Assembly: GCF_003207795.1 (NCBI RefSeq)
Contig: NZ_NIRT01000016.1
Coordinates: 1 to 64,000, forward strand
Reading direction: 5' to 3'
DNA: 64,000 bases
Source of the DNA: Komagataeibacter nataicola
GTDB taxonomy: Bacteria > Pseudomonadota > Alphaproteobacteria > Acetobacterales > Acetobacteraceae
The notes under the pieces: model-generated
Told to the model about the DNA's origin: nothing
Seen by the model: the letters and a program-made list of their open reading frames with translations, nothing else
The model's database searches: none
Shown here: piece by piece, positions 2,761-61,688 of the stretch
How the letters are laid out: every line of letters begins with the position of its first letter
Numbering within the stretch: the stretch's first letter is position 1
Program-made: the position numbers and the translations under genes

Positions 2761-2845
2761 ATAAAAAAGTATCTGTCGCAGCATCTGAAAAAGCTTCAGA
2801 GAAATGCCGCCTTCCTGAAAAAAAGACGACATCCGGCAACCCTTA
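2761..2845. repeat. Composite palindromic intergenic repeat, copy 1
   Basis: Carries both modules of the dispersed family, GAAAAAGCTTC and GCCGCCTTC..GAAAAAAAG, with an AT-rich outer edge (ATAAAAAAGT). It begins at the stop codon of the TetR gene. Fairly diverged. Confidence 0.55.
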
Positions 2846-3499
2846 TTCCTCCTTGATGCAGATGCCTGAAGTGAAGATCTGCCAGGCGCGTTCAAAGAAG
2901 CGCGCGCGCATCTGCGGATCATGCAGCCTGTTCAGGCGCAGCATGGTGTTCTGGAGCGGCCATCCCAGGATCAGGCTTATCAGGACCCGGGCCGTCTCTT
3001 CATGGTCGGGAGAGTGGATGCGCCCCGCATCGGCGGCGGCCTTGATAAGGCGGCTCAGCGTGGCCACGAAGGGTTCCACGATGGTGTGCATCATGTCATC
3101 CACGACAGAGGCGATGCGATGCCCATCTGCAATAACGATGCGGTAGGCTTCAAGCGTTTCGGGCCGCAGCATGAAGTCAAGGAAGAACTGGCTGATTTCA
3201 CGCGTGGCGAGCAGCGGGTCGGTGGAGGAAGCCTCGACCGCGCCCGCCGCCTCGAGCAGCAACGTGCCGCGTGCCGCCACCACCGCGCGGAACAGGTCTT
3301 CCTTTGATGCGTAGCGTCGGTACAGGCTGGCCTTGCTGCACTCCGCCACGCGCGCGATCCGTTCAAGCGACGTGGCGGCGTAACCCTGCTTGATGAATAA
3401 TGCCGTTGCAACTTCAAGAACATGCCGGTCAAGTTGTGCCGAGCCTTCAGGCGTCGGGCGTCCGCCCGTATGTGGCGGTCTTGATGATACGTCAGACAT
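2843..3499 (-). CDS. TetR/AcrR family repressor
   Basis: One-component regulator of 218 residues. The N-terminal TetR HTH spans about residues 22-75 (ATALFIKQGYAATSLERIA, then CSKASLYRRYASKEDLF), followed by an all-helical ligand and dimer domain. An N-terminal Pro/Gly-rich tail of about 20 residues precedes the HTH. AAGGGACG lies upstream of the ATG and supports this start. The ligand cannot be read from sequence. Downstream on the same strand lie a 9+1+9 palindrome and the Crp/Fnr gene, a likely target. An AACATA...TATGTT inverted repeat (3549-3566) lies upstream of its own start and may be autoregulatory. Confidence 0.9.
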   Translation of the reverse strand: MSDVSSRPPHTGGRPTPEGSAQLDRHVLEVATALFIKQGYAATSLERIARVAECSKASLYRRYASKEDLFRAVVAARGTLLLEAAGAVEASSTDPLLATREISQFFLDFMLRPETLEAYRIVIADGHRIASVVDDMMHTIVEPFVATLSRLIKAAADAGRIHSPDHEETARVLISLILGWPLQNTMLRLNRLHDPQMRARFFERAWQIFTSGICIKEE

Positions 3500-3548
3500 T
3501 TTTCGTCCCTTACTACTCCAGCCGTCAGTCGTTCATGTCATGCCACGA

Positions 3549-3566
3549 AACATAACATGATATGTT
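3549..3566. promoter_or_regulatory. AACATA-N6-TATGTT inverted repeat upstream of TetR gene
   Basis: Perfect six-base arms with a six-base centre, 50 bp upstream of the TetR start at 3499. Candidate operator or promoter element; its sequence differs from the 2716-2734 palindrome, so both are unlikely to bind the same protein. Confidence 0.3.
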
Positions 3567-3675
3567 GGGCCTGCTGCCATTCAGCCCTACAATCCAGCCT
3601 GTCGCCACGGAGATGCCAGAACGGCGGTTCGTGTTCAAATGGTCATTGCGAATGGGTGGTTCGCCATGTTTCGTA

Positions 3676-4122
3676 CTATCTGCTTCCCTTCAGGCGGAAG
3701 GAAAGCCGTGCGATCTGCCCGGACAGGAAAGCGCCCCGGGTGTGTGCGACGAGATTGATGTCCACGCCCCGGCCATTTTCCATGACAAGGCCCGCCGTGC
3801 CGTGGTGGATGGTGGCCGTGCCGCCCACGCTCCAGTACGTGCCATTGAAGTCCTGCAGGCGGGCGAGATTGCGCACGCAGCCCTGACCCGACAGCGCCAT
3901 GCCGCCCACGCTCAGCATGCCGCCGCCCCGAATGGTGAAGGGATAGGCATGCGTGCCGTCATACAGCGTGCCCCGCCCCCACACATAACCGACCCCGACG
4001 GCGATATGGTGCGCCGAGAGTTCGATCCGGGCATCCGTGGCCGCGCACGTTGCCTGCGCCGTGCCATGAAGGGCCAGAAAGCTGGCGAGGGCCAGAAGGC
4101 CTGTATGCCGGAAGCGGTTCAT
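3676..4122 (-). CDS. Conserved-looking exported protein, function unknown
   Basis: 148 residues if translation starts at ATG 4122, which gives a clean signal peptide (MNRFRHTGLLALASFLALHG then TAQA cleavage) followed by a glycine-rich mature domain. A longer frame to 4299 exists but its N-terminal part is Arg/Cys-rich and lacks a secretion signal. The mature part has the pattern GYVWGRGTLYDGTHAYPFTIRG ... VRNLARLQDFNGTYWSVGG, which reads like a small periplasmic beta-rich protein; it recalls EipA/DUF1134-type sequences, but only weakly. Two Cys in the mature part (ATCAATD and GQGCVRN) could form a disulfide. No operon partner: neighbours are separated by gaps of 176 and 308 bp. Confidence 0.6.
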   Translation of the reverse strand: MNRFRHTGLLALASFLALHGTAQATCAATDARIELSAHHIAVGVGYVWGRGTLYDGTHAYPFTIRGGGMLSVGGMALSGQGCVRNLARLQDFNGTYWSVGGTATIHHGTAGLVMENGRGVDINLVAHTRGAFLSGQIARLSFRLKGSR

Positions 4123-4430
4123 CACGTGATCCAGTGAAAGAAGTGCGGACGCCATTCGCTCCTTGAACAGAACGGTTCGGTTTCGTTTAATTGAGGGCAA
4201 AAGGCCAGTCAATGACAAAACAGGCCGACCGCAGCACTTCCCGCGCCGGGTGTGGGGTGAACAGTTGTCTGGAAACAGTGCAGCGCGATGCCCGTCCACA
4301 ATCGCCGCTTTATTTTAGGGCGGCGATTGAAAAAGCAGGTCCAATAATAGACGAAAATCATAAAAGTTTTCGGTGAAGCTTTTTCAAAAAGCTTCGGAAG
4401 GCATCGCCTGAAGGTATTAAGGCACCGGTT
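4123..4430. other. Non-coding gap with one repeat copy
   Basis: 308 bp between two minus-strand genes. It holds repeat copy 2 (4361-4410) and an AT-rich tract before it. I see no convincing short gene. Confidence 0.6.
4361..4410. repeat. Composite palindromic intergenic repeat, copy 2
   Basis: TAAAAGTTTTCGGTGAAGCT followed by TTTTCAAAAAGCTTCGG: outer AAAGTTTTCGG edge plus one full GAAGCTTTTT/AAAAAGCTTC palindrome. The GCCGCC module is missing or degraded. Confidence 0.75.
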
Positions 4431-5357
4431 TTACCGGCTGTCGCGGCGTAGTTCATAAGCGCGCAGGTTCAGGTCCGTCAGACCGAGAATGGGGGTGGCA
4501 ACGCCATGCATGCGGGCGCGGGTGACAAGATCGCCAATAATCTGCTGCGCTTCCACCGGGGCGCCCTGCGAAAGGTCGCGGAACATGGAGGAGGTCAGCG
4601 TGGAATCCGGCTGCGTCAGTCTTTTGACAATGCCGTTTATGGTGTCGTCTGCCAGCGGGTAGCCGGCGGCTGCGGCAATCGAGGTGCATTCCTTTATCGT
4701 GGCGTGCACGAAATCGGTGCCCCCGGCCAGGCGGGCCACCTCGCCTACATTCGCGCGCATGAGGCAGCATAGCGTGCCCAGCGAGGCCAGAAGCGACCAT
4801 TTGTTCCACATATCCTGCATGATGTGGGGCGAGGGCACGGTATCGAACCCCGGCGCACGCAGGGCTTCGGCCATGGTGCTGGCATCCTGCCCCGCCACCA
4901 GGGGGCCGAATACCAGCCGGGGGGTGACACCAGCCTGATGGATGCGGCCTTCGCCGTCGAGGCTGCTGACAATGAAGCAGGTACCCCCCATGACCGCCTC
5001 ATGGCCAAAGCGGCTGGACAGCACATCAAGGTGCTGCATGCCATTGAGCAGCGGTATGATGCGTGTCTGCGGGCCGATGGCGGGGGCCATGTCTACTATC
5101 GCGGCGGCAAGGGAGTAGGCTTTTACACTCAGGATGACGATGTCATGGGGTTGGGTGAGCTGATCCGCCGTGACCATGCGCGGCGTAAGCGTTGCATCAC
5201 CAAGCGGGCTGACAAGGCACAGCCCTGTTGCGCTAAGCTGCGCCTGCCGCCGCGGGCGCACGAGAAACGTTACATCATGGCCAGAAGCGGCGAGGCGCGC
5301 GCCAAAATAGCCCCCCACGGCACCCGCGCCGACAACAAGAATCTTTGGAGTCATCAT
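4431..5357 (-). CDS. Ketopantoate reductase family (PanE/ApbA-like) oxidoreductase
   Basis: NADPH-dependent 2-dehydropantoate 2-reductase family. From ATG 5357 the protein is 308 residues and opens with a Rossmann motif, KILVVGAGAVGGYFGARLA. The N-terminal half binds NADPH; the C-terminal helical half (from about residue 180, with a Lys/Asn-containing MWNKWSLLASLGTLCC stretch) matches the ApbA C-terminal domain. A longer frame exists, but GGAAA just upstream and the Rossmann start favour 5357. Many bacteria carry paralogues of this family acting on other 2-keto acids, so panE itself is not certain. It is divergent from an IclR regulator across a strong palindrome (5511-5539). Confidence 0.85.
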   Translation of the reverse strand: MMTPKILVVGAGAVGGYFGARLAASGHDVTFLVRPRRQAQLSATGLCLVSPLGDATLTPRMVTADQLTQPHDIVILSVKAYSLAAAIVDMAPAIGPQTRIIPLLNGMQHLDVLSSRFGHEAVMGGTCFIVSSLDGEGRIHQAGVTPRLVFGPLVAGQDASTMAEALRAPGFDTVPSPHIMQDMWNKWSLLASLGTLCCLMRANVGEVARLAGGTDFVHATIKECTSIAAAAGYPLADDTINGIVKRLTQPDSTLTSSMFRDLSQGAPVEAQQIIGDLVTRARMHGVATPILGLTDLNLRAYELRRDSR

Positions 5358-5510
5358 GGTGTTTTCCGCCTGTATCCGGTCCTGCGTTTCAATGTGAATC
5401 TGCTCCCGTCCTGCCGGGGCGGTCAAGCCGGCAGGCGCGTGGGGGCGGCCTGATGGCTCACGCTGCATGGCCATGCGCTCCCTCTTGTAACCGGTTATTT
5501 TTCAGGTAAG

Positions 5511-9156: not shown

Positions 9157-10047
9157 CTACCACAGATAGACGACTTTCACGTAATAGGCATTACTTTCGG
9201 GTATGTTCCGCCCATCAACAGAGTGCGAGTAGCGCGATGTAAAGGAAAAGTGTTTTGAAATATTGAGCATCGCGCCCGCACCCAGTGTTATTTCACGGCT
9301 GTCCGAATTATCCATGTACTGGCTTGCGGTCCGGTCGTAGGTGCCTTTCACGTTCTGCCAGTCCAGCGCGAAAAACGGCTCGAACAGTCTGGTCGCCTTC
9401 CAGCTGAAGCGCAGGTTGGTGTAGAACACCACGCCGGGCGAATAGGTATGCCCGCCCTTGACGTGCTTGGCCGCCCCCGCCACGGTGCCGGCATCGCCAT
9501 CAAAGCTGAAATGCTTCCATTCATAATCGAAAATGAAGCTCGAGATGTTCGACCAGTAATTGGGTGAGGTGGCATCACGCGTGCCAACAGCCGTCTGCAT
9601 GAAGGTCTGGATGCCAAACGTGCTGTGTTTGTTGGGCTTGAACCACGCGGCAGGCCCCACAATGGTGGGGCCAAGGCCGCCGTAATTCGTGCCATCGGCC
9701 AGAGTGTAGCTTTCGCTCTGGATCAGCTCGAAGGCGAAGCCCACATGGGGAATGGCGTCAAAACTGCGGAAATGGACATATTTGGTCATGCCCGCCCAGG
9801 TATGGCTGCCGCCATTTGGCTTGCGCTGCCCCAGGCTGTTGTAGGAGTGGCCCGCCGCATTGCCATCGCCATACTGCACCAGCACGTTGAAAGGCTTGAA
9901 GTCGACGGGCAGGTCATATTCGTGGGGGCCGATGATCCCGAGGGTTACGTCTGCGCCATGGGCCTTTGGCGTAAGGAACAGTATGGCCGAAGGAAGGGTA
10001 AGGCGCAGCATGGCATGGAGCCATGCCGATCTTTCTGTCAGACGCAT
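9157..10047 (-). CDS. Outer-membrane channel-like protein (phenol MetA-pathway/SphA type)
   Basis: 296 residues from ATG 10047, with a signal peptide (LRLTLPSAILFLTPKAHG, cleavage before ADVTLG) and a mature part made of alternating beta-strand-like segments ending in the aromatic YYVKVVYLW, as expected for an outer-membrane barrel. It resembles the MetA_deg/SphA transporter group. It begins 66 bp after gcd on the same strand, with a strong stem-loop between them. A role letting sugar or product cross the outer membrane for Gcd is inference from position only. Confidence 0.65.
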   Translation of the reverse strand: MRLTERSAWLHAMLRLTLPSAILFLTPKAHGADVTLGIIGPHEYDLPVDFKPFNVLVQYGDGNAAGHSYNSLGQRKPNGGSHTWAGMTKYVHFRSFDAIPHVGFAFELIQSESYTLADGTNYGGLGPTIVGPAAWFKPNKHSTFGIQTFMQTAVGTRDATSPNYWSNISSFIFDYEWKHFSFDGDAGTVAGAAKHVKGGHTYSPGVVFYTNLRFSWKATRLFEPFFALDWQNVKGTYDRTASQYMDNSDSREITLGAGAMLNISKHFSFTSRYSHSVDGRNIPESNAYYVKVVYLW

Positions 10048-10066
10048 GGGAGGGGCTTCCCTGATG

Positions 10067-10099
10067 AAAAGCAGGTATCCGGGTGAACCGGATACCTGC
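10067..10099 (-). terminator. Stem-loop between gcd and the channel gene
   Basis: Perfect 12-bp arms, GCAGGTATCCGG and CCGGATACCTGC, with a five-base loop; on the minus strand TTTT follows. It lies after the gcd stop and about 20 bp before the channel ATG, so it can act as terminator, attenuator or mRNA-stabilising stem. Confidence 0.7.
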
Positions 10100-10113
10100 A
10101 CGGTTATTGTTTT

Positions 10114-12573
10114 TTATTGGGCTGCATTGCCAGCCTGTGCACCATCGAGCGTGTAGGCGATGATGTAATCGCCACTCCGGGTGCCCAGGCCACCATGGCC
10201 GCCAGCCGCAATCAGGACATACTGCTTGCCGCCAACCTCATACGACATGGGCGTTGCCTGGCCGCCTGCGGGCAGGCGGTCGGTCCACAGCACGTTGCCG
10301 GTCGCAAGGTCGAAGGCGCGCAGGTAATCATCCGCCGTGGCCCCCATGAAGACAACGCCACCCCTGGTCACAATATTGCCACCGACGTTATACATGCCGG
10401 TCGGCAGGGGGATGTTGTTGTGGGTTCGGAACGGACCCGTATCGCGCGTGGTCCCCACCGGGTGCTGCCACACGATTTTCTTGGTCACGAGGTCGATCGC
10501 GCTCAGCGTGCCCCAGACCGGGCCCTTGCACGGAATCTGCAGCGGGTTCAGCCACGGGTTGGTCAGCGCGATGTAAGGCGTGCCGTAATCAGGCGAGACG
10601 GAAAGCGCATCACCCTTGGCGGCAGGCTCTTCGCCCTGGCCGTTCCACTTGGGCAGCGTGCCATTGCCTTCGAGCTTCTGGCGGTGGTCGAGCTTGATGC
10701 GGAAGGGCAGGTAGCTCGCATTGGCCAGCATGATCTTGCGCTGCGGGTCGATGGTGATGCCCTGCCAGTCAACCACGCCATAGAAGGCGGGATAGACCAC
10801 GGTGGTCTGGCCCACATGCGGCGGCGTGAACTGCCCCTCATAGGCGGACTGGCGGTACTCGATGCGGCACAGCATCTGGTCGAGCAGGGTTGCGCCCCAC
10901 ATGTCGCTTTCCTTCAGGTTCGGTGGCGTAAGGCTGGGCATGGCCGCCGGGAAGGGCTGCGTGGGGGAGGCATGGTCATCAGGCGCAACACCCGCGGTCG
11001 GCACGGGGCGTTCTTCTACCGGGTAGCCGGGCACGGTCTCGCCGGTGCGGCGGTCAAGCACGAAGAACTCGCCGCGCTTGGTGCTCTGCACCAGGGCGGG
11101 GATGGTCTCGCCATTGGGGCCGGGCAGGTCGACCATGGACGGGCCGGAGGGGATGTCCATGTCCCACAGGTCATGGTGCACGGTCTGGTAGGTCCAGCGG
11201 CGCTCGCCGGTTACGATATCAAGCGCGATGGTGGCCGAGGAGGTCGCATCATCAAACGGGCGGCGCGTGCCACCCCAGTTATCGGGCGGCGAGTTGCCGG
11301 TGGGGATATAGACCATGCCAAGGTTGAGGTCGGCGGTGTACACGCCCCAGGCATTGGGGGTGTCGCGGGTCAGGACTTCATCGGGGTTGGGTTTCCAGGT
11401 TTCGGGGGTGTGGCCCGCATCCCATGCCCAGGCCAGTGCGCCGGTTGTCGCGTCAAAGCCGCGGATCGCGCCTGAGGGCTCGAAATTGGCCTGGTTGTCA
11501 AACACCCAGCCACCCGTAATCAGGCGGTTCTTGGCCACCAGCGGCGGCGAGGTGACGAAGTGGAAGCCATGTGGCACGTGGCCGAGATATTCACGCAGGG
11601 AAATGAAACCGTGATCGCCAAAATCATCGCACGGCTTGCCGGTTTCGGCATCAAGCGCCACCATGCGCACATCCGCCACGGGGGAGTAGATGCGGGTGCG
11701 GCAGCTTGTCTGGATCTCGTCGGGAATGCGGTAATACGATACGCCACGGCAGGCGAGATAGACGTTCTTGGCCAGGTCGGCGGTATCGGGGTGGGGATCG
11801 AACTTCCACTTCACCTTGCCGGTGGCGGCATCCATCGCAATCACCCAGCTATGGGGCGTGCACATGTACAGCGTGTTGTCGATCTTGATGGGTGTGACCT
11901 CGAGGTTGAACTCATGGCCCTGATCGGGGCCGGCCACGGTGCCTTCGCCCGCCTGCTGCACGTCACCCGTGCGGGTCAGCCACGCGCGTTTGAGCTTGCC
12001 CACGTTGGCGGGCGTGATCTGGCCCAGCGGGGAATAGCGGTCGCCGCCCGCGGTGCGGCCATAGGCCTGCCAGTCGCCATCGGGCATGTTCTCGGCCGCT
12101 GATTCCGGCTGGCCCTGTGCCGCCATGCGATCGGCAGGGACCGTGCCGTCAATGGAATAGGACGAAAAACAGCTGATGAGCAGCACAAGGCACGACACGC
12201 CAACCGCGCCGAGCAGGGCCTTCTTGTCAGCCAGCCAGCTTTCGTTTGCGCGCCACACCTGCGGCAGCAGCAGCCAGGCGCCAATGCCCACCAGCGTCAT
12301 CAGCCGGACTTCGAGGCCCCAGATGTTGAAGCCGGTCTCGACCAGCGCCCAGATGGTGGCAACCACCAGCAGGGCGGCATACAGGCTGCTTGCCAGCCGG
12401 GGCTGCTTCAGCCCCAGGACTGCAGCGGCGAGCAGGACGCAGCCCGTCAGCGCATAGAACCAGGAGCCGCCCAGCAGGAGCAGTTGGGCGCCGCCAAAGA
12501 ATAGAAAAAGCCCGATCAGGGCCAGCAAGACTGAGGTTATGATAGATAATAACCTCTTGGTGGTTTCTCGCAT
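10114..12573 (-). CDS. gcd: Membrane-bound PQQ-dependent glucose dehydrogenase
   Basis: Periplasmic quinoprotein oxidising D-glucose to gluconolactone and passing electrons to ubiquinone. From ATG 12573 it is 819 residues: five membrane helices in the first 150 or so, then a periplasmic PQQ beta-propeller. Characteristic stretches include DGDWQAYGRTAGGDRYSPLGQI, the WDMDIPSGPSMVDLPG region (an Asp there is the catalytic base in the E. coli enzyme), and the C-terminal GGGIV-like GGNIVTRGGVVFMGAT. Length fits the family (about 800). A longer frame exists but its extra N-terminal residues are Arg-rich and precede the first helix, so 12573 is preferred. Supplies gluconate that the FAD dehydrogenase at 32.3-35.9 kb may oxidise further. 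Confidence 0.95.
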   Translation of the reverse strand: MRETTKRLLSIITSVLLALIGLFLFFGGAQLLLLGGSWFYALTGCVLLAAAVLGLKQPRLASSLYAALLVVATIWALVETGFNIWGLEVRLMTLVGIGAWLLLPQVWRANESWLADKKALLGAVGVSCLVLLISCFSSYSIDGTVPADRMAAQGQPESAAENMPDGDWQAYGRTAGGDRYSPLGQITPANVGKLKRAWLTRTGDVQQAGEGTVAGPDQGHEFNLEVTPIKIDNTLYMCTPHSWVIAMDAATGKVKWKFDPHPDTADLAKNVYLACRGVSYYRIPDEIQTSCRTRIYSPVADVRMVALDAETGKPCDDFGDHGFISLREYLGHVPHGFHFVTSPPLVAKNRLITGGWVFDNQANFEPSGAIRGFDATTGALAWAWDAGHTPETWKPNPDEVLTRDTPNAWGVYTADLNLGMVYIPTGNSPPDNWGGTRRPFDDATSSATIALDIVTGERRWTYQTVHHDLWDMDIPSGPSMVDLPGPNGETIPALVQSTKRGEFFVLDRRTGETVPGYPVEERPVPTAGVAPDDHASPTQPFPAAMPSLTPPNLKESDMWGATLLDQMLCRIEYRQSAYEGQFTPPHVGQTTVVYPAFYGVVDWQGITIDPQRKIMLANASYLPFRIKLDHRQKLEGNGTLPKWNGQGEEPAAKGDALSVSPDYGTPYIALTNPWLNPLQIPCKGPVWGTLSAIDLVTKKIVWQHPVGTTRDTGPFRTHNNIPLPTGMYNVGGNIVTRGGVVFMGATADDYLRAFDLATGNVLWTDRLPAGGQATPMSYEVGGKQYVLIAAGGHGGLGTRSGDYIIAYTLDGAQAGNAAQ

Positions 12574-13048
12574 GCCGCGTTTCTTTCCATAGTTTTCCAA
12601 AGCTGTGCTACGTGTGTAGGTATTGGGTTGCCTATCCCGCCCAGCCAGAACCCGTTGTTCAGCATGAGGGAGGCGCAAAATGCCATGCCCTACCGCGCGG
12701 GCTTCACGCAGCTGTGTCCGGGCATGGCGCAACTGTCTCAAAATCGAGACGGGTTCCGTGCCCTGCTGTCATGATAAGGCCTGAAAGCCGTGCGGGCGTG
12801 CTGTCTGTATGGGCGGGTGTCGCAGGTCTTCCCGCCGTGGCGGGGCCGGGCTGGCGGGTCAGGCCGGGCGGCAGGAGCATGGCCTGTGCGGCGCTTGCCG
12901 GTTCAATAGACGTTATGCACGTTTTTCTATGAACGGGCAGTCTGTACTGCCTTGGCATAATAGACACTTCCACTACAGTGCGGGAAGTGCCAGAAGGCCC
13001 ACAAGTGAAGCGACATGATGTTGTGTCGTTATATTTCTGCAGGCAATC
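12574..13048. other. Divergent promoter region of gcd and an MFS gene
   Basis: 475 bp with no convincing gene. Two inverted repeats lie on the MFS side: GGCAGT-CTGT-ACTGCC (12935-12950) and CACTTCC...GGAAGTG (about 12965-12992). Either could be an operator. Confidence 0.5.
12935..12950. promoter_or_regulatory. GGCAGT-N4-ACTGCC inverted repeat
   Basis: Perfect six-base arms about 100 bp upstream of the MFS start at 13049, followed closely by TTGGCATAAT. A second pair of arms (CACTTCC/GGAAGTG) follows within 20 bp. Candidate operator; regulator unknown. Confidence 0.35.
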
Positions 13049-14245
13049 ATGCTTTTCAAAACCCTCCCGGCTGAAGCCGTTATCGGTCTTTGCGCCCTGT
13101 TTGCATGTACTTTCACGGCGCTGACAACCGAGGTGGCGCCTGTCGGTATCCTGATCGACATGGCCCGCGCCTTTCACATCCCCGAAGGTGAGGCCGGGCT
13201 TGCCGTCAGCGCCTTTGCCCTGATGGTGGCGGTGTGCGCCGTGCCGCTGACCATCATGACCGCGCATATCGACCGCAAGCGGCTCGTGCTGGTGTCACTG
13301 CTGGGCTATGTGGTGTCGAACCTGGTGGTGGCGGCGGCGCCCACTTTCATGGTGCTGTGCGCGGGGCGCCTGATTGGTGGCGTTGCGCATGCGCTGCTCA
13401 TGTCCATCGCTTCCGCCTATGCCGCGCGGCTGGTTCCGGCCAAGATGACCGGGCGGGCCATTTCATTCGTTTATGGCGGCACGTCGCTTGGCGCGGTTCT
13501 GGGCGTGCCGGGGGCGGCGGCCATCGGGCATCTGGCGGGCTGGCGGATGGCGATGTACATGATGACCGGCCTGTCCGTTCTGCTTACGCTGTGCATTGCC
13601 TTCTTCCTGCCGCCGGTCAGCACGCCGGTGCAGGTCAGGAACGGGTTGCCCTCGGCCGGGCCGAGCCGGGCCATGCGGATCTTTCTGGCGGTGATTGCGG
13701 TCAATGCCATCCTCTTCTTCGCCCATAACCTGCTTTATACCTACGTTACCCCGCTGCTGCTCGATCATGGGCTGGCCACGGGCAACCTGAGCATTGCCCT
13801 GCTGCTGACCGGCAGCGTGAGCATCGTGGGCCTGTGGGGGGCGGGGCAGTTTGTCGATACCCGACCGGCAACAGGCCTGCTGGGCGGTGGTGGTGCTATG
13901 CTCATCGGCATGGGGCTGATGTACGGGCACATCCTCTCGGGCTGGGCGGCGGTGGCGCCGGTCGGGCTGTGGTGCATGGGCTATTCGGCGGTCATTCCCT
14001 GCGTCATGTCCGGCGCAATCCGCGCGCGGGCCACGCGGCCTGACGTGGCCGGGGCCGGAATCAATGCCGCGAGCAATGTGGGCATTCTCATGGGCTCGGC
14101 CGTGGGCGGGCAGGTTCTGAACGCGGCGGGCTTTGGCGTGCTCACGCCCATGGCCATCATCACGGTGGTGGTGGGGCTGGTTGTGGCCATGACCAACCCC
14201 CGCGCTTTCCCCCACAGGTTGACCGACACGGATCATGAGGAATAA
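13049..14245 (+). CDS. MFS transporter, DHA1 family
   Basis: 398 residues, twelve helices, opening with TLPAEAVIGLCALFACTFTALTTE. The charged loop between helices 2 and 3 is AHIDRKRLVLVSLLGYVVSN and the motif C-like segment is GGTSLGAVLGVPGAAAIGHLAGW. This resembles sugar-efflux/chloramphenicol-resistance type DHA1 proteins. Its stop is close to the start of a GST gene (about 11 bp), so the two may be cotranscribed, which fits an export/detoxification pair. Substrate not predictable. Confidence 0.85.
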   Translation: MLFKTLPAEAVIGLCALFACTFTALTTEVAPVGILIDMARAFHIPEGEAGLAVSAFALMVAVCAVPLTIMTAHIDRKRLVLVSLLGYVVSNLVVAAAPTFMVLCAGRLIGGVAHALLMSIASAYAARLVPAKMTGRAISFVYGGTSLGAVLGVPGAAAIGHLAGWRMAMYMMTGLSVLLTLCIAFFLPPVSTPVQVRNGLPSAGPSRAMRIFLAVIAVNAILFFAHNLLYTYVTPLLLDHGLATGNLSIALLLTGSVSIVGLWGAGQFVDTRPATGLLGGGGAMLIGMGLMYGHILSGWAAVAPVGLWCMGYSAVIPCVMSGAIRARATRPDVAGAGINAASNVGILMGSAVGGQVLNAAGFGVLTPMAIITVVVGLVVAMTNPRAFPHRLTDTDHEE

Positions 14246-14256: not shown

Positions 14257-14883
14257 ATGACATCATGGCCCGTGCTCTACAGCTTCCGCCGCTGCCCGTA
14301 TGCCATGCGGGCGCGGCTGGCGCTGCTGGCGAGTGAAACGCCATGCGCCCTGCGTGAAGTAAAGCTCGCGGCCAAGCCTGCCGCCATGCTGCGGGCCTCA
14401 CCCAAGGGGACGGTGCCGGTGCTGGTCCTGCCCGAGGGCCGCGTGCTGGCCGAAAGCCTGGAGATCATGGACTGGGCGCTGGCCCGCCACGACCCGTGGC
14501 ACTGGTGGCCCGGCACGCGACTTGACCTGATCGCGCGGAATGACGGGCCGTTCAAATATCATCTCGATCGTTACAAATATGCGACCCGCCATCAGTCGGA
14601 TGCGCTGCGCCACCGGGCACAGGCCCTGCAGGTCCTGCATGATCTTGAAGCGGCGCTGCAGGCAGGCCCGTTCCTGCACGGTGCGCAACCGGGCATGACC
14701 GATGCCGCCATTGCCCCGTTCGTGCGCCAGTTTGCGGCAACCGATCCTGACTGGTTCGGCGCCTGTGCCCTGCCGCGCGTGCAGGGCTGGCTGGAGGCTT
14801 TTCTGGCCATGAAGCTGTTCGCGCGGGCCATGGAGCGCCTGGCCCCGTGGCGCGAAGGCGATGCGCCGGTTCTGCTGGGTTGA
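14257..14883 (+). CDS. Glutathione S-transferase family protein
   Basis: 208 residues. N-terminal thioredoxin-fold half with SFRRCPYAMRARLAL, where the Cys-Pro-Tyr corresponds to the active site of omega/lambda-like GSTs, and KGTVPVLVLPEGRVLAESLEIM, the glutathione-contact segment (cis-Pro and Glu-Ser). C-terminal helical half from about residue 90. Cys-type GSTs act as thiol transferases or dehalogenase/reductases rather than conjugating enzymes. GTG at 14254 directly precedes the ATG used here. It is convergent with the PLP-enzyme gene across repeat copy 3. Confidence 0.85.
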   Translation: MTSWPVLYSFRRCPYAMRARLALLASETPCALREVKLAAKPAAMLRASPKGTVPVLVLPEGRVLAESLEIMDWALARHDPWHWWPGTRLDLIARNDGPFKYHLDRYKYATRHQSDALRHRAQALQVLHDLEAALQAGPFLHGAQPGMTDAAIAPFVRQFAATDPDWFGACALPRVQGWLEAFLAMKLFARAMERLAPWREGDAPVLLG

Positions 14884-14930
14884 AGAACGCCGCCTTTTTG
14901 AAAGAAGGCGGCACCCAGAAACTTTTATTC
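14884..14930. repeat. Composite palindromic intergenic repeat, copy 3
   Basis: AACGCCGCCTTTTTGAAAG, AAGGCGGCACCCAGAAACTT: the GCCGCC module with its outer ACCC.GAAACTTTTA edge. It fills the whole 50-bp gap between two convergent genes, starting right at the GST stop and ending at the PLP-enzyme stop, so it is placed to act as a bidirectional terminator. Confidence 0.85.
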
Positions 14931-20448: not shown

Positions 20449-20505
20449 AGATGAAAGTTTCAGGTGAAGCTTTTTTCAAAAAGGCGGCACCCGAAAACTT
20501 TTATC
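20449..20505. repeat. Composite palindromic intergenic repeat, copy 4
   Basis: ATGAAAGTTTCAGGTGAAGC, TTTTTTCAAAAAGGCGGCAC, CCGAAAACTTTTATCC. It joins half of the AAGCTT module to half of the GGCGGC module, as if recombined between modules. It contains the stop codon of the FTR1 gene. Confidence 0.85.
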
Positions 20506-21663: not shown

Positions 21664-22012
21664 GAACAGACTCTCCGTGGAATGACGGCAAAATATTGCG
21701 ACTTATTATCACTGTCAATTTTGGCCTTACGATCACGACTTCTGCGGCCCGGCAGTTGATCCGGCACTATGAGCGCCAAAGGCGTGATAAAATAAGAAGT
21801 TTTTGGCGAAGCTTTTTCCCAAAAAGCTTCACAGGATACGGTCTTTTCGAAAAAAAAAGGGCACCCGGAAACCTTTACTTTTTTCGTGGCGATCAGACAC
21901 GCTGCGGGCAGATCAGGCGGAACCAAACAGACGGCCATTCCCTTAACCGCCTGTATCCGCAGCGCGTGTGCCGCCAGGCGGGTCCATGTTCTGCCCCGGA
22001 AGGTCAGCCGCC
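21664..22012. other. Divergent promoter region with repeat copy 5
   Basis: 349 bp between the cupredoxin gene and a GST gene, both read outward. It holds one of the most complete repeat copies (21788-21882); otherwise no gene is seen. Confidence 0.5.
21788..21882. repeat. Composite palindromic intergenic repeat, copy 5
   Basis: Starts AATAAGAAGTTTTTGGCG, includes the perfect GAAGCTTTTT-CCC-AAAAAGCTTC palindrome (21808-21830), a degraded second module, and ends GGGCACCCGGAAACCTTTAC. It lies between divergent genes, so it is not restricted to 3' ends. Confidence 0.85.
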
Positions 22013-44257: not shown

Positions 44258-44283
44258 CTATGATCCGATAACGGGAAGTAACA

Positions 44284-44356
44284 GAATTTTCCGGTGAAGC
44301 TTTTTTCAGGAAGCTTCAGGAAACACCGTTTTCCTTCAAATATAAAGGTAGCACCC
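44284..44356. repeat. Composite palindromic intergenic repeat, copy 6
   Basis: TTTTCCGGTGAAGCTTTTTT, CAGGAAGCTTCAGGAAACAC, then a degraded second module ending ATATAAAGGTAGCACC. It ends at the symporter stop codon. Confidence 0.75.
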
Positions 44357-44358
44357 TG

Positions 44359-50363: not shown

Positions 50364-51809
50364 ATGATTGATACACTCACACCCGGCCGGATTGTTGTCG
50401 TGGGTGATCTTCTGCTGGACCGTTATATTACCGGCTCGGTCAACCGGATCTCGCCCGAGGCCCCGGTGCCCGTGCTGCTGCATGCGCGCGAGCACGCTAC
50501 CCCCGGCGGGGGCGCCAACGTGGCGGCGAACGCGGCGGCCCTTGGCGCGCAGGTCAGCCTGATCGGGGTCGTGGGTGCGGACGGCGCGGCCCGCACCCTG
50601 CGTGAAAAACTGGCCGCATGGCCCGGCATCGACACAAGCGGATGGGTGATCGACCCCGCATGGACCACCATCACCAAGACCCGCATTCTGGGCGGCCAGC
50701 AGCAGATCATCCGCATTGATGAAGAAATTCTCACCCCCTTCAGTGATGAAACCAATGCGCGCCTGCTTGCTGCCGTTGATGCGTCCCTGCCGGGCGCGCG
50801 GGTGCTGGTCTGCTCGGATTACGCCAAGGGCGTGCTGTCGGATGATGTGATACGGGGCATTATGGCGCGGGCGGCGGCGGCCAGCGTGCCCGTGATCGTG
50901 GACCCCAAGCGCGAGACATTCGGCATTTACGCAGGGGCCGCGCTGATTACGCCCAACCGCGCCGAGATCAGCCGCGCCACCGGCCTGCCCACCGGCACGG
51001 ATGCGCAGGTGGAGGCGGCGGCGCGCGCGGCGGGCGGCCAGTTTGGCGGTGATGTGCTGGTCACGCGCTCGGAGCAGGGCATGTCGCTGTGGCAGCAGGC
51101 GGGCAATGTGCGGCATGTCTCGGCTCAGCGCTCGGAAGTGTTTGATGTGTGCGGCGCGGGCGATACGGTGGTGGCCACCATCGCCACCATGCTCTCCGCC
51201 GGGCTGCCGCTCGAGACAGCCGTGGTCATCGCCACCACGGCGGCGGCGATCTCGGTCAGCAAGCATGGCACGGCCACCGTCTCGCGCCACGAACTGCAAC
51301 ATGCCCTTAATGGGGAAACCACGGGCCACGGCAACCTTGTCAGTCTGGTCGAGGCCACGCGCATCGTAGCGGACTGGCGGCGGCATGGCGCGCGCATCGT
51401 GTTCACCAATGGCTGTTTCGACCTGCTGCACCCCGGCCATATCGCCCTGCTGCGCGGTGCCGCGCGGCAGGGTGACAGGCTGGTGGTCGCACTCAATACC
51501 GACCGCTCGGTGGCGGCACTCAAGGGGCCTTCGCGCCCGGTGCAGGATGAGCAGGCGCGGGCCACCGTGCTCGGCGCACTGCGTGATGTGGACCTTGTGG
51601 TGCTGTTTGATGAGGAGACGCCCATCGAAGCCATAAAGGCCCTGCGCCCCGATGTGCTGGTCAAGGGATCGGACTATACGGAAGAGCAGGTGGTGGGCGC
51701 GCCCTTCGTGCGTGGTTATGGTGGCCGCGTGGCCCTGATCGACCTGATTGACGGCCGTTCGACCACATCGCTGGTCCGGCGCGCAGGCGCGGGGCAGGCC
51801 AATGGGTGA
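50364..51809 (+). CDS. hldE: Bifunctional heptose kinase/adenylyltransferase HldE
   Basis: 481 residues from ATG 50364. Makes ADP-heptose for the LPS inner core: the N-terminal ribokinase-like domain (about 1-320: VVVGDLLLDRYITGSVNRIS, FDVCGAGDTVVATIATML) phosphorylates D-glycero-beta-D-manno-heptose 7-phosphate, and the C-terminal nucleotidyltransferase domain (from about 345: FTNGCFDLLHPGHIALLRGA, with HPGH) adds AMP. Both active sites look intact. Overlaps the next gene by 8 bp. Confidence 0.96.
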   Translation: MIDTLTPGRIVVVGDLLLDRYITGSVNRISPEAPVPVLLHAREHATPGGGANVAANAAALGAQVSLIGVVGADGAARTLREKLAAWPGIDTSGWVIDPAWTTITKTRILGGQQQIIRIDEEILTPFSDETNARLLAAVDASLPGARVLVCSDYAKGVLSDDVIRGIMARAAAASVPVIVDPKRETFGIYAGAALITPNRAEISRATGLPTGTDAQVEAAARAAGGQFGGDVLVTRSEQGMSLWQQAGNVRHVSAQRSEVFDVCGAGDTVVATIATMLSAGLPLETAVVIATTAAAISVSKHGTATVSRHELQHALNGETTGHGNLVSLVEATRIVADWRRHGARIVFTNGCFDLLHPGHIALLRGAARQGDRLVVALNTDRSVAALKGPSRPVQDEQARATVLGALRDVDLVVLFDEETPIEAIKALRPDVLVKGSDYTEEQVVGAPFVRGYGGRVALIDLIDGRSTTSLVRRAGAGQANG

Positions 51810-52983
51810 GCCGCCCGTGGGCGCACAACCGGGTGTGGGGCTGCGGGACTGGCTGGCGCAGGCCGCCCTGCCGTTATGGATCGGGGCGGGCTTCGACCCC
51901 GTGCGGCGCCTGTTTCATGAGCGGCTGGGCTTTGACGGCGTGCCGTGCAACCCGCCCGCCCTGCGGCTGATGGTGCAGGCCCGCCAGATCGCGACCTATG
52001 TACGGGCCGCCGATGATGGCCATGGTGCGGCTGGCGCTACGGCGCTGGCCTGCATGGCGCAGGTGCGAAAGCGTTACTGGCGGGCGGATGGCGCGCCGGG
52101 CTGGGTCTTTTCACTCGCCCCCGATGGCACCCCGGCGGATACACGACGCGACCTCTATGCCCATGCCTTTGTTCTTTATGCCTGCGCGTGGTCATACAGG
52201 CTCTCGGGCGAGCGGACATGGCTCGAGACGGCACGGCAGACGGTGGATGAAATAACCACCCTGTTCGGCACCGCCCAGGTCGGCGGTTACCTTGATACCG
52301 TGCCGGGGCAGGATGGTTTTCGTCGCCAGAACCCCCATATGCACCTGCTTGAAGCCTTCCTTGCGCTGGTCGAGGTTGGGGGGGGCGAGGTGTATCTCGA
52401 TCACGCCCGCGCCCTTGCGGTGCTGGGCATGCGGCATTTCATGCTGCCCGGCGGTGCAGTGGGCGAACTGTTCACGCCCTTGTGGCAGCCGGCGGCCCCC
52501 CCGGGCCAGAACCGGACCGAGCCGGGCCATGTGTTTGAATGGGCCTGGTTGCTGGCGGAATATGCACGGCTGGCGGGGGAGGGAGCAGGTTCGCCCTTCA
52601 TGCGTGCATCGGAGCAGTTGCATGCGTTTGGCATGCGCCATGGCGTCTGCCCCGACACGCTGGCCGTGTGCGATGCGGTGACCGAGCAGGGCTTTCCGCT
52701 CGAGGCCACGACACGCATCTGGCAGCAGACCGAATTCATCCGCCAGCTTGCCCGCCGCGCCGCAGGGGGCGATGATGCCGCCGCCAGGCTGGTGGCGCCA
52801 GCCTGCGCCCGTTTTGCGCGCGCCTATGTGCCGCCCGCCCTGCGCGGTGGCTGGTTTGACCGGCTGGGGGTGGATGACACACCGCTTGATGGCTACATGC
52901 CCGCGAGTTCGCTGTACCATATCTATGGCGCCGTGCGTGAAATCGGCTCAGGCAGCAGCCTGTCAGCAGAAGTAGCTGTCTGA
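51802..52983 (+). CDS. AGE-family sugar epimerase/isomerase
   Basis: 393 residues from ATG 51802, whose frame overlaps the hldE stop. (alpha/alpha)6-barrel of the N-acylglucosamine 2-epimerase / mannose-6-phosphate isomerase-like family, with conserved HLLEAFLAL (NPHMHLLEAFLALVE), EPGHVFEWAWLLAEYARLAG and TRIWQQTEFIRQLARRA. Catalytic His residues of AGE/YihS enzymes are expected in the first and last of these. Substrate is uncertain; coupling to hldE suggests a role in LPS or heptose precursor supply, but this is inference. Confidence 0.82.
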   Translation: MGEPPVGAQPGVGLRDWLAQAALPLWIGAGFDPVRRLFHERLGFDGVPCNPPALRLMVQARQIATYVRAADDGHGAAGATALACMAQVRKRYWRADGAPGWVFSLAPDGTPADTRRDLYAHAFVLYACAWSYRLSGERTWLETARQTVDEITTLFGTAQVGGYLDTVPGQDGFRRQNPHMHLLEAFLALVEVGGGEVYLDHARALAVLGMRHFMLPGGAVGELFTPLWQPAAPPGQNRTEPGHVFEWAWLLAEYARLAGEGAGSPFMRASEQLHAFGMRHGVCPDTLAVCDAVTEQGFPLEATTRIWQQTEFIRQLARRAAGGDDAAARLVAPACARFARAYVPPALRGGWFDRLGVDDTPLDGYMPASSLYHIYGAVREIGSGSSLSAEVAV

Positions 52984-53008: not shown

Positions 53009-53075
53009 AATTATAAAAGCTTCTGAAGATGTCATCGTCTTGAAAAAAGGTGACACCCGAAAGCTTTTATTTTTC
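53009..53075. repeat. Composite palindromic intergenic repeat, copy 7
   Basis: AATTATAAAAGCTTCTGAAG then CTTGAAAAAAGGTGACACCC, GAAAGCTTTTATTTTTC. Both outer edges are recognisable; the inner modules are degraded. Confidence 0.65.
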
Positions 53076-57354: not shown

Positions 57355-57639
57355 GTGCCCGGTGTCCTGCCCTGAGCAGTCCTGAAGGGTCCGCGCTGCA
57401 TACAGGGCGCATGCCTGTCCGCGCCGTGTCGGCATCAGGACGTTTGTGGCGAAAATTTTTTCACAAAACTTCGTAAAACGCCGCATCAGGCGTTTACCGC
57501 CCCTTTCGCCCGCATGGTTGCAGCGCGGGCTGAAATACATCATCCAGCGGGGCTTGTCGGCATGTCGGCATGGGTGTAACGGCGCGCAACCGCTTGCGTG
57601 CAACACGCGCGCTTTACCCTATTCATCCAGAGCATATGC

Positions 57640-58983: not shown

Positions 58984-60252
58984 ATGAGCACTCAATCCGC
59001 GCCAGACATGCGCCTGCCCCCTTTATTGGGTGACCTGTTTCCTGCCCGCCCCGTGCAGGGGGAAGCAGGCGCCGTGCTGCTGCGCGCGCAGGCGGTGATC
59101 GATACCATCATCGCCCCCACCGCAGCGCAGCGTGACCGCGCGGGCGGCTACCCCCATCAGGCCATGGCGGCCCTCAAGGCGACGGGCGTGCTGGCCCTTG
59201 CGGTGCCACGCGCCTGGGGCGGGCTGGGCGTGACACAGGAACTCTCGCTCGAACTCATGTTGCGCCTTGCGGTGGCGGACCCCGCCATTGCCCAACTCTA
59301 CAAGGTGCATGATGACCTCGTGCGCGAGATATTCGTTTACGCTCCGGCCGTGCTCAGGCCCGTGCTGGCGCGGCGCATCGTGCACGACCATGCCATTCTC
59401 GGCATGGCCGTGGCCGAGAACGGCCGTACGGCGGACAGTTTCATGCAGACACTGGCCCGGCAGGGTGAAGCGGGCACGCATGTCGTCTCGGGCCGCAAGA
59501 TCTATGCCACGGGCGCATCCGGGGCGGATCTGGTTGCCGTGTCCTCCTTTGATCCCGTGCGGGCGCAGCAGGCGGGGGGGAACGTGCGCGCAGGTGTGCG
59601 TATGGACCTCGTGCCGCGCGGGGCGGCGGGGCTGAGCTTTCACCATGACTGGAACCGCATGGGCCAGCGCGCGACCGATTCCGGCACGGTTACGCTGGAT
59701 AATGTAGTGGTCGATGATTTCTGGAACGCCCTGGCCCCTGACACCACCGTGCCGCAGCATGTTGCGCTGCGCTTTCAGGCCGGTTTCAGCGCGATTCTGA
59801 CCGGTATTGGTCTGGGCGCATTGCGGGCTGTCTGTGCCTTTGTGCCGCAGCATGCGCGCCCGTGGGGGGCGGCAGGCGTGGAAAATGCGGACCAGGACCC
59901 CTATGTGCGCCGCCTGCTGGGCGAGATCGGAGCTGATCTGTTTGGCGCCTGGTGCGGCGTGATGCAGGCCGGTCGCCTGCTTGACCAGCATGAGCAGGGC
60001 GAGGCGCCACGCGCCACGGTGGCCATGGCGGCAAGTGCCGCGCGTTCGGTTGCAACGCGTGCGGCCCTGCGTGCGGCAGGCGAGGCACCGGCGGCGGCAG
60101 GCGCGCGGGGCACGGATGCGGCCCTGGGGCTGGACCGTTACTGGCGCGATGCCCGCACCCTGTCGCTGCATGACCCCGTGGACTGGAAGAATGCTGAAAT
60201 CGGCCGCAACCTGCTGACGGGCTGGGTGCCGGAACCGGGGCCGTATCAGTAA
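58984..60252 (+). CDS. Acyl-CoA-dehydrogenase-fold flavoprotein, SfnB/DszC-like
   Basis: 422 residues with the N-terminal helical, middle beta and C-terminal helical domains of this fold. AMAALKATGVLALAVPRAWG and FMQTLARQGEAGTHVVSGRK match the middle region of the SfnB/DszC branch, flavin-dependent monooxygenases used to release sulfur from organosulfur compounds such as sulfones or sulfonates. The Arg/Ser flavin-reductase pattern of true acyl-CoA dehydrogenases (catalytic Glu) is not obvious. No sulfonate transporter or flavin reductase is next to it. Ribosome site is weak, so the start is tentative. Confidence 0.78.
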   Translation: MSTQSAPDMRLPPLLGDLFPARPVQGEAGAVLLRAQAVIDTIIAPTAAQRDRAGGYPHQAMAALKATGVLALAVPRAWGGLGVTQELSLELMLRLAVADPAIAQLYKVHDDLVREIFVYAPAVLRPVLARRIVHDHAILGMAVAENGRTADSFMQTLARQGEAGTHVVSGRKIYATGASGADLVAVSSFDPVRAQQAGGNVRAGVRMDLVPRGAAGLSFHHDWNRMGQRATDSGTVTLDNVVVDDFWNALAPDTTVPQHVALRFQAGFSAILTGIGLGALRAVCAFVPQHARPWGAAGVENADQDPYVRRLLGEIGADLFGAWCGVMQAGRLLDQHEQGEAPRATVAMAASAARSVATRAALRAAGEAPAAAGARGTDAALGLDRYWRDARTLSLHDPVDWKNAEIGRNLLTGWVPEPGPYQ

Positions 60253-60286
60253 AAAACCGATAAGGGTTTGGTGTACCTGGTTCCAG

Positions 60287-60342
60287 AACGCTTCGGGGAA
60301 CGCCGCCTTTTTTTTAAAAAGCGGTGTCCTGAAACTTTAATC
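60287..60342. repeat. Composite palindromic intergenic repeat, copy 9
   Basis: AACGCTTCGGGGAACGCCGC, CTTTTTTTTAAAAAGCGGTG, TCCTGAAACTTTAATC. The GCCGCCTTT/AAAAAGCGG module is well kept; it lies between two same-strand genes. Confidence 0.8.
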
Positions 60343-60464
60343 AGCCGGTTCAGGGCCAGGGCATGACAGGTCCGGTCACGGCTGCCGGCCGGGATAAGTT
60401 TGACAGGCGGCGTGCCTGCGTGATTGATCGCGCCCAGTGTGCCTGAACCAGAAGGTAGAGCGGA

Positions 60465-61466
60465 ATGCAGCGACCCGTCATAGCCATTATATCAACCGGC
60501 GGCACCATTGCCCGCCAGGCGATGGACCCGCGGGATACGGTCGATTATGCCGAGATCGGCACAAGCCTTGGCGGGGCTGACCTGCTTGCGGCGCTGCCCG
60601 AGGCCGTGCGGGCGCGCTTTGCGGTGCGCGGCATTCCCTTTTCCAGTTGCGACAGCGTGGAAATGACCCTGCCCCGGTGGTTTGAACTGGCCAGCGTCAT
60701 CAGCCACACGGTCGCCAGCCAGCCTGATCTGAGCGGTGTTGTCGTAACTCACGGCACTTCATCGCTGGAGGAAGGGGCCTGTTTTCTTGATCTCGTGCTC
60801 GATCTGCCCTGTCCGGTCGTTGTGGTGGGGGCGCAGCGCCCGGCCAGCGCCATCAGCGCCGATGGCCCGGCCAACCTGTATGCCGCCCTGCTGGTGGCAT
60901 CGGCCCCGCAGGCTGCCGGTCGCGGCGTGCTGGTGGTGGCCAATAACGAGATTCACGCCGCCCAGGAAGTGACCAAGGCTTCAACCTATCAGCTCGAGAC
61001 CTTCCGCTCGCCCGATTTTGGCCCGCTGGGCATGATCGAGGCCAACCGGGTGTTCTTCGGGCGCGCAAGTGCCTACCGCCGCCATGTGGGCTGGCCACCC
61101 GCTTATGGCGCGGGCGGCGAGATCCCGCGCGTGGACATAACCTACAGCCATGCAGGCGCCGATGGCGTGGGCATACGCGCCTTTGTGCAGGCGGGCGCGC
61201 GTGGCCTCATTGCTGCGGGCATGCTGCCCGGCATGTGCACGCCTGCCGAGAACGCGGCATTGGATGAAGCCGTGGCGGCGGGTGTCGTGGTGGTGCAGGC
61301 CAGCAGTGGTTATTGCGGCGGCGTGGTGCGCCGCCACGAACTGTGCCAGCGCGGCCTCCTTGCGGCAGGCCACATGCGCCCGCGTCAGGCGCGCATCCTG
61401 CTGGCCCTTGCCCTCATGACCGGCGCGGATGCCGATGCCATCCAGACCCTGTTCGACCAACCCTGA
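60465..61466 (+). CDS. L-asparaginase family protein with altered active-site Asp
   Basis: 333 residues of the bacterial asparaginase I/II fold, hydrolysing L-asparagine to aspartate and ammonia. First catalytic motif STGGTIA at residues 10-16 (Thr11 nucleophile candidate). Second motif reads VVTHGTSSLEEG, where classic enzymes have HGTDTMEE: the substrate-binding Asp is Ser here. The later Lys in VTKAST is kept. So it may have shifted substrate or low activity, or belong to a less-known branch. AAGGTAGAG precedes the ATG. An asparagine permease gene lies 1.5 kb downstream on the other strand, which supports an asparagine role. Confidence 0.85.
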   Translation: MQRPVIAIISTGGTIARQAMDPRDTVDYAEIGTSLGGADLLAALPEAVRARFAVRGIPFSSCDSVEMTLPRWFELASVISHTVASQPDLSGVVVTHGTSSLEEGACFLDLVLDLPCPVVVVGAQRPASAISADGPANLYAALLVASAPQAAGRGVLVVANNEIHAAQEVTKASTYQLETFRSPDFGPLGMIEANRVFFGRASAYRRHVGWPPAYGAGGEIPRVDITYSHAGADGVGIRAFVQAGARGLIAAGMLPGMCTPAENAALDEAVAAGVVVVQASSGYCGGVVRRHELCQRGLLAAGHMRPRQARILLALALMTGADADAIQTLFDQP

Positions 61467-61515
61467 TACAGGGTTGGTCATGAGGGATTGTTTGAAAACA
61501 GATCATTGATAAAAA

Positions 61516-61583
61516 ATAAGAAAAGTTTTTAGGTGCCGCCTTCTGGCGCGTTTTGAAAAAAGCTTCACCCAAAACTTTTATAA
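61516..61583. repeat. Composite palindromic intergenic repeat, copy 10
   Basis: AATAAGAAAAGTTTTTAGGT, GCCGCCTTCTGGCGCG, TTTTGAAAAAAGCTTCACCC, AAAACTTTTATAA: both outer edges and both module halves in the expected order. Confidence 0.85.
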
Positions 61584-61649
61584 TTGCAGGATATTATTGA
61601 GCCTGACTTTTCGGGCAGCCCCTAAGGAAAGCGGCCATACAGACTTCAT

Positions 61650-61688
61650 GGAATGCCGCTTTGTTTTAAAAGGCGGCACCCAACGGTC
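61650..61688. repeat. Composite palindromic intergenic repeat, copy 11
   Basis: GGAATGCCGCTTTGTTTTAA then AAGGCGGCACCCAACGG. Single GCCGC/GGCGGC module, directly after the stop side of the outer-membrane protein gene and only 66 bp from copy 10. Confidence 0.7.

Follow-up and report, generated by a model that had tools for sequence, protein, structure and literature searches.

The 64,000-nt stretch of the Komagataeibacter nataicola genome analyzed here (contig NZ_NIRT01000016.1, positions 1 to 64,000; hereafter the window) carries, dispersed among its genes, 11 copies of a palindromic repeat with the 84-nt consensus ATAAAAGTTTTTGGTGAAGCTTTTTTCAAAAAGCTTCGAAGAACGCCGCCTTTTTGAAAAAAGGCGGCACCCAAAAACTTTTAT. 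The element has the shape of a Y, lies preferentially close behind stop codons, is shared in place with related species, and can be found turned round between unchanged flanks; these properties point to a possible role at the 3' ends of transcripts. The copies, recovered by a one-sequence nhmmer search with the consensus at E ≤0.05 (Table 1), equal in number the eleven of the original prediction; a profile search gives 12 hits, the cross-joined copy (20453-20504) being split in two. Three of the 11 overlap a stop codon, and the copy that had been said to fill the whole gap between two convergent genes does so, lying at 14881-14928 between a GST gene and a class-V aminotransferase gene, a position where an element is present in all five relatives compared. 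The outer end of the element, AAGTTTTCGGGTG, has 6 matches in the window at ≤2 mismatches (5 of them inside copies) against 0.80 expected, and none of 100 shuffles reaches 6. Searched against Rfam, the window has no family match at gathering score.

Table 1. Copies of the element in the window, with their detection and adjoining genes
Form	Position	Strand	Detection and orthologous elements	Adjoining gene
Degenerate full copy	2763..2846	+	nhmmer 2765-2845, 18.7 bits; profile 37.6 bits	overlaps stop of TetR-family gene (2843-3499 -; Pfam)
Left half: outer arm and hairpin A	4361..4423	+	nhmmer; orthologous elements in G018, G004	8 nt off 3' end of ApbA-type gene (4431-5474 -; Pfam)
Right half: hairpin B and right outer arm	14881..14930	+	nhmmer 14880-14928; profile	occupies gap of convergent GST (14254-14883 +) and class-V aminotransferase (14934-16409 -) genes
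Cross-joined: left arm of hairpin A and right arm of hairpin B	20449..20505	+	nhmmer 20453-20503	overlaps stop of FTR1 gene (20501-21319 -; Pfam)
Full copy, gap called divergent	21793..21879	+	nhmmer 21796-21877, 33.8 bits; profile 59.8 bits	
Copy with degraded right outer arm	44281..44358	+	nhmmer 44284-44356; orthologous elements in G018, G007, G003, G004	3 nt off 3' end of SSF transporter gene (44359-45894 -; Pfam)
Copy without left part	53014..53070	+	nhmmer 53014-53069	starts 31 nt past GlcNAc 2-epimerase gene (51748-52983 +; Pfam)
Weak partial copy (left part)	57439..57486	+	nhmmer 57440-57486, 18.1 bits; profile 25.1 bits	
Full copy	60258..60341	+	nhmmer 60262-60339	10 nt past acyl-CoA dehydrogenase gene (58984-60252 +; Pfam)
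Cross-joined, reverse orientation	61520..61580	-	nhmmer 61521-61580 (minus); profile	
Right-half copy (hairpin B)	61641..61683	+	nhmmer 13.2 bits; profile 21.8 bits	9 nt off 3' end of open reading frame 61692-62858 (-), without Pfam match

The repeat is the composite of outer edges and two palindromes that the original prediction described. An outer inverted repeat, ATAAAAGTTTTTGGGTG/CACCCAAAAACTTTTAT, encloses two hairpins and so produces a three-way junction. The left outer arm is followed in turn by hairpin A (GAAGC), the linker, and hairpin B (GCCGCC), after which the right outer arm pairs with the left. The outer stem comprises 14 bp and the hairpins 9-10 bp each, with the linker between them free; hairpin A is capped by TTTTTTCAAAAA and hairpin B by TTTTTGAAAAAA (the TTTTT..AAAAA caps), and the consensus has TA at both edges. 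RNA folding of the consensus yields -38.9 kcal/mol with a z of -8.0, and the reverse strand a z of -7.9, the same Y being predicted from both strands at about -39 kcal/mol and z about -8; folded as DNA, the two strands give z values of -7.7 and -8.0. The element is about 74% similar to its own reverse complement. Taking the single-sequence fold as the stated structure, pairing is kept in 87.8% of cells in an alignment of 95 of the 106 full copies (11 low-scoring full copies being excluded), and in the outer stem 79.1% of cells are paired at 11 pairs and 91.6% at 3 pairs. Double-change cells number 49, against 29.3 ± 4.6 in shuffled data with 0 of 500 shuffles as high, a count inflated by the relatedness of the copies. 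RNAalifold, applied to the copy alignment, recovers hairpin B only (5 pairs), probably on account of gap columns. Compensated or rebuilt stems occur in other genera (TCCGCC/GGCGGA, GCAGC/GCTGC, and GTGGGGGC/GCCCCCAC). The last of these is found at locus L153 of genome G180 (1477-1572), where hairpin A has been swapped for this different, longer stem with the TTTTTTCAAAAA cap and the outer arms kept, and which reads as a stem rebuilt on a conserved cap.

The repeat is abundant well beyond the window. In the host genome (3.67 Mb, 105 contigs), the hairpin-A pattern with ≤3 mismatches gives 92 + 89 hits against 0 + 0 for the reversed pattern, perfect palindromes counting on both strands in this search, and 464 kb of the genome's own sequence gives 119 raw nhmmer hits at E ≤10 against 2 (E >9) in one order-3 Markov shuffle, which bears out the enrichment over shuffled sequence that the original prediction implied. 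These 464 kb, which combine the window with 20 segments of 20 kb each drawn from four large contigs, hold 61 elements; the segments were chosen non-randomly, from large contigs known to hold copies, so extrapolation to a few hundred elements per genome is rough. First-look candidates number 293 in the whole host genome and 42-355 in each of 19 genomes of the genus, all of which carry the element. The order of modules is conserved: 106 of 200 elements collected from 1.6 Mb span nearly the whole model in the order given above, the others being partial or shortened. Across the family, a scan at E 1e-5 found a match in 45 of 397 genomes and in 11 of 102 sampled Acetobacteraceae genera, some of the matches weak or partial; named carriers among the matches listed include Komagataeibacter, Novacetimonas, Gluconacetobacter entanii, Acetobacter, and Gluconobacter. 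Plasmid matches comprise five Komagataeibacter records and one Novacetimonas record. Weak matches in G022, G062, G205, G247, and G279 (genera g5 and g45; genomes of 4.9-5.9 Mb) either extend over the whole element at about 75% identity or cover hairpin A and its arm only, and are possibly distant cousins of the element.

The placement of the elements relative to genes was assessed with our own codon-usage gene caller, whose starts are unreliable and whose stops are what matters here. Among the 397 elements with two called neighbors in all sets (a count that includes related copies and excludes 32 elements at locus edges), 202 lie in convergent, 181 in tandem, and 14 in divergent gaps. In the 464-kb sample, 25 of 58 such elements occupy convergent gaps and 3 divergent ones, whereas of the 55,447 intergenic bases 6,464 belong to convergent gaps and 14,554 to divergent ones. 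The near edge falls ≤30 nt from a stop codon in 284 of 383 elements and at -3 to 0 of the called stop in 22 of 383; of the claim that copies often start exactly at a stop codon, the nearness stands, but the exactness is overstated. Of the 152 tandem elements with room to lie elsewhere, 97 are separated from the upstream stop by no more than 30 nt, where 35.4 would be expected and the maximum in 1000 random placements is 57. Because these placements already left 60 nt before the start codon free, sparing of promoters does not explain the proximity to stops.

Many of the same elements stand in the same places in syntenic stretches of relatives (five relatives for the window, G018 and G004 elsewhere). 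Among 21 near-consensus sites, all 18 that could be aligned have the element in another species too (3 were not alignable), and no species-specific or recent insertion was seen at these 18. A clean empty site with a target duplication was not found, and the absences and shortened forms inspected read as deletion products. The original prediction had distinguished full, single-module, and cross-joined copies, all of which are present; the cross-joined form is a species difference at several sites, and comparison of the sequences identifies it as the outcome of internal deletion between the two TTTTT..AAAAA caps. For example, at the site of the copy at 60258..60341, G007 and G015 have a full element, G004 has a cross-joined and G003 a reduced one, and G018 has lost it.

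Elements also invert in place, with their flanks unchanged. Between the same flanks, orientation is discordant at 5 of 56 distinct Komagataeibacter sites (58 listings minus two doubly listed window sites), and flipping copies tend to score higher (one-sided p 0.052). In Gluconobacter, the gap that separates a gene of the mannitol-dehydrogenase type from one of the EPSP-synthase family (site 1) holds an element in 14 of 26 genomes; the element takes up this gap wholly or for the most part, with the stop codon of the first gene supplied by the element's edge (by eye, TAA in 12 of 14 and TGA in 2 of 14). Relative to the flanks, seven of these elements are in "+" and seven in "-" orientation. Their paired parts hardly differ among the 14 genomes and the linker varies; mean identity is 93.2% within the element and 90.0% across the neighboring 300 + 300 nt, most of which is coding, and in 80 of the 91 pairs the element is the more similar. 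A tree built from the flanks requires at least 6 orientation changes, 5 of them forced by well-supported branches and no fewer than with random labels, and trees of single sides or of the nearest 300 nt require 4-5. At a second Gluconobacter site the orientations are again mixed, 6:8 by the strands of the hits, which are the sole source of orientation there, and 6:3 counting clear calls only; the 5 of 14 elements left out of the latter ratio have ≤78% identity, and their calls could be wrong because the element so resembles its own reverse complement. At a third site, orientation differs between G. oxydans NBRC 14819 (L290) and Gluconobacter sp. Dm-62 (L311) (named RefSeq records). The arrangement is that of hairpin-associated minute inversions, in which a core is turned between inverted repeats with the flanks unchanged.

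Collectively, these observations are consistent with an old, vertically inherited family of Y-shaped palindromes that has an orientation-independent role at the 3' ends of transcripts (bidirectional terminator or end block) and that flips by template switching, a reading to which we assign a probability of roughly 0.5. The Y-shaped element, standing just behind a stop codon, would act alike in either orientation, and its most likely job would be that of a hairpin cluster at the 3' end of the transcript that terminates transcription in both directions or blocks the end; termination or end protection, taken as a part of its own, has a chance of about one half. Since the inverted repeats at its two ends fold onto each other, the element's core would sometimes be turned in place; the probable mechanism, which we infer, is template switching while the DNA is replicated. 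Slippage between the two TTTTT..AAAAA caps would yield the single-module and cross-joined copies. A bolder form of the proposal, that a self-inverting, orientation-independent Y-shaped signal of one homologous family takes the place of classical terminators at hundreds of sites in several genera and flips by virtue of its hairpin ends, with sister species in opposite orientation, is put forward tentatively and is probably too strong.

A role in termination is suggested by the 3' end of the EPSP-synthase-family gene in Gluconobacter, where a canonical terminator is found in 1 of 14 genomes with the element versus 6 of 12 without it (4 of these 12 run straight into the next gene, by eye); such a swap suggests that the element may do a terminator's work. 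A strand-wobble test, which asks whether G.U rather than A.C is retained when the RNA is read along the direction of the gene, looked favorable at first. It gave 54:21 on the same strand and 49:55 on the opposite strand in a first discovery count on the 95 full copies (p 0.0012; permutation p 0.0005 with 53 tandem elements), an odds ratio (OR) of 2.56 (p 0.0003) in the final discovery count, and an OR of 2.20 (p 0.00013) over all data. Unpaired positions show no bias between C>T and G>A (27:35 vs 39:50).

Several results weigh against this proposal. The three window copies in 10000-29000 are not among the 16 canonical terminator sites called there (13.8 expected), and the T-rich flank is not stronger in the direction of transcription but the same on both sides, with 3.75 T in 8 positions downstream of the element (n=138), 4.15 in 8 in the upstream flank (n=106), and 3.89 in divergent gaps (n=19). 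In Komagataeibacter, the presence of an element does not clearly lower the frequency of canonical terminators, which are found at 9 of 44 convergent ends with an element and 6 of 62 without, and in 1 of 23 wide tandem gaps with an element and 9 of 93 without. The swap in Gluconobacter may be a single event, the carriers being related. The wobble signal loses strength in the replication sets (OR 1.75, p 0.11, permutation 0.086; 74 tandem elements), in which the second count had ten duplicates removed and drew on loci chosen by a perfect left half. The same bias is seen where the pairing partner is deleted (42:12 vs 37:26, OR 2.46, p 0.03), so the signal may be a mutation bias, and we do not use it as proof of selection at the RNA level. 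Elements do not evolve more slowly overall, identity being 76.1% for elements versus 74.5% for other intergenic DNA. At site 1 (L356-L369), moreover, each linker variant occurs in one orientation only, in every row: AAAGAAC in three, AGGTCTC in three, and AAAGATC in one "-" element, and AAAGACC in four, AGGGCTC in two, and GAAGCTC in one "+" element. The linker types track the two main clades, and the site 1 copies were therefore not replaced from outside; within the clades each variant keeps to one orientation, so species may have exchanged "+" and "-" alleles, and such exchange, rather than many separate flips, may explain the scatter, two exchanged allele lineages being a pattern that would fit the coupling of linker and orientation. 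By the linker variants, site 1 needs at least two inversions, and more only if alleles were not exchanged between species. An earlier reading of five to six independent flips at this site was dropped for this reason. For the terminator that the original prediction had considered possible, position and structure make it plausible, but the canonical form of a hairpin plus U-tract fails at the three window copies and in the flank test; a few degenerate copies, such as those in L127 and L135, do qualify as canonical terminators.

The main alternative is a parasite of the type of repetitive extragenic palindromic (REP) sequences or miniature inverted-repeat transposable elements (MITEs), that is, a nonautonomous mobile repeat without host role, whose transposase was lost or is unrecognized, which prefers or tolerates gene 3' ends and whose structure is a transposition substrate. 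Hundreds of dispersed, similar candidates, ends that are inverted repeats with TA at both consensus edges, A/T-rich flanks that are intrinsic to the element and not sense-directed, the patchy distribution over 11 of 102 sampled genera, and an overall rate of change no slower than that of other intergenic DNA are all in its favor. Bacterial MITEs are nonautonomous elements bounded by terminal inverted repeats, and the element resembles them in having such repeats, in its outer stem, and in being short, noncoding, and dispersed. Further signs of the MITE nature claimed by the original prediction were not seen: in sampled DNA no parent transposon was found, since no inverted pair of neighboring lone ends lies 100-4000 nt apart and no insertion-sequence-like span has the same ends; nor does any of the 18 alignable sites show an insertion polymorphism or recent insertion, and no target duplication was found. 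The likeness to REP sequences is also partial. As set out in parts of PMC3733652, REP sequences, bacterial interspersed mosaic elements (BIMEs), and hairpin-forming REP doublets (REPINs) are of high copy number, palindromic, extragenic, found mostly in gaps between convergent or same-direction genes, and probably transcribed, and in shape, number, and 3'-end placement the present element agrees with them, being extragenic with a preference for convergent and same-direction neighbors. It differs from them in being an 84-nt three-way junction, where their units are 20-40 bp, and in lacking both tag and partner enzyme. The same source, in the passages concerned, defines the REP family by a palindrome of 20-40 bp that is accompanied by a tag, GTAG or CGTC, and gives CGTC repeats as missing in Acetobacteraceae (PMC3733652); neither tag is in the 84-nt consensus of the 95 copies, and the REP-associated tyrosine transposase (RAYT or TnpAREP; Y1_Tnp, PF01797) was found neither in the host genome (0 of 1) nor in the 19 genomes of the genus (0 of 19), with the control positive in 5 of 14. 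A parasite is also hard to reconcile with stems that are nearly unchanged across 14 Gluconobacter species despite the few copies seen per genome, and with a proximity to stops that is strong and goes beyond the sparing of promoters. We regard a parasitic origin without host role as possible and on balance doubtful.

A neutral relic, kept palindromic by nothing but mutation, would owe its form to template switching from arm to arm, which repairs palindromes and makes inversions, and its position to the tolerance of 3' gaps. Products of template switching and slippage (inversions, cross-joins, single-hairpin palindromes) are indeed common, and the strand-wobble signal persists without a pairing partner, as a mutational origin would have it. 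We nevertheless consider this account improbable, because the Gluconobacter copies vary in the linker and hardly at all in the paired parts, because 80 of the 91 pairs show the element to be more alike than its flanks, which are mostly coding, and because the positional bias exceeds tolerance. A site-specific switch, in which a recombinase acting on the outer inverted repeats flips the core and alters expression of a neighbor, would account for the 7:7 ratio at Gluconobacter site 1, unclustered on the flank tree, and for the mixed second site (6:8; 6:3 clear), but is very improbable, since a flip makes two hairpins that resemble each other change places without altering the outer stem, the elements lie at gene 3' ends and not upstream of promoters, and a recombinase acting in trans should also join distant copies among hundreds of similar sites.

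Two further systems invite comparison with a Y-shaped 3'-end signal. In chloroplasts, conserved stem-loops whose core is recurrently inverted in place, leading to homoplasy, are described in portions of PMC3123225 and PMC6444266; the present element is like these hairpin-associated minute inversions in that a core is turned round within a conserved stem-loop, and differs in that the inverted part is 2-6 bp in the Sorghum case treated there and here a core of two hairpins and linker, in bacteria and with many copies per genome. Hairpin clusters have been proposed as intrinsic terminators for which poly A/U trails are not necessary, according to sections of PMC8355165. With them the element shares adjacent hairpins close behind a stop codon; the clusters treated in those sections are predicted across many genomes, whereas here a single homologous, dispersed, and invertible family is concerned, and its termination is putative. 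Searches of the open-access PMC library aimed at the 84-nt repeat turned up no paper recognized as describing it, and the passages on five terms in a comparative Komagataeibacter paper (PMC6528568) do not mention it.

If a 3'-end role holds, many gene ends in industrial cellulose- and vinegar-making bacteria share one removable structure, with a bearing on operon maps, on construct design, and, because a standard scan misses the element, on terminator prediction. The inversions offer a countable natural assay of hairpin-driven template switching in bacteria, where the parts of the papers cited above deal with chloroplast stem-loops. The family also provides a test of whether REP-like repeats persist by function or by mobility, since here one persists with no RAYT found and no visible mobility.

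Some individual sites differ from the general picture. At L131 (5054-5135) and at the orthologous site in G004, a full element adjoins a canonical bidirectional terminator (GGCCGCACCCCGAAGGATGCGGCC with a T-run). In G018 and G004, the flanks of a near-consensus copy at L125 (14614-14696; C18:174614) are separated by an additional 1-2 kb, a local rearrangement. Around the window copy at 21796-21877, about 120 nt separate the flanks in the window versus about 1.4 kb in the five relatives; apparently a segment beside this copy was lost from the window genome or gained by the relatives. Finally, positions 20525-20697 of the window, the 3' part of the FTR1-type iron permease gene, have 78-79% identity to genes on two Komagataeibacter saccharivorans plasmids.

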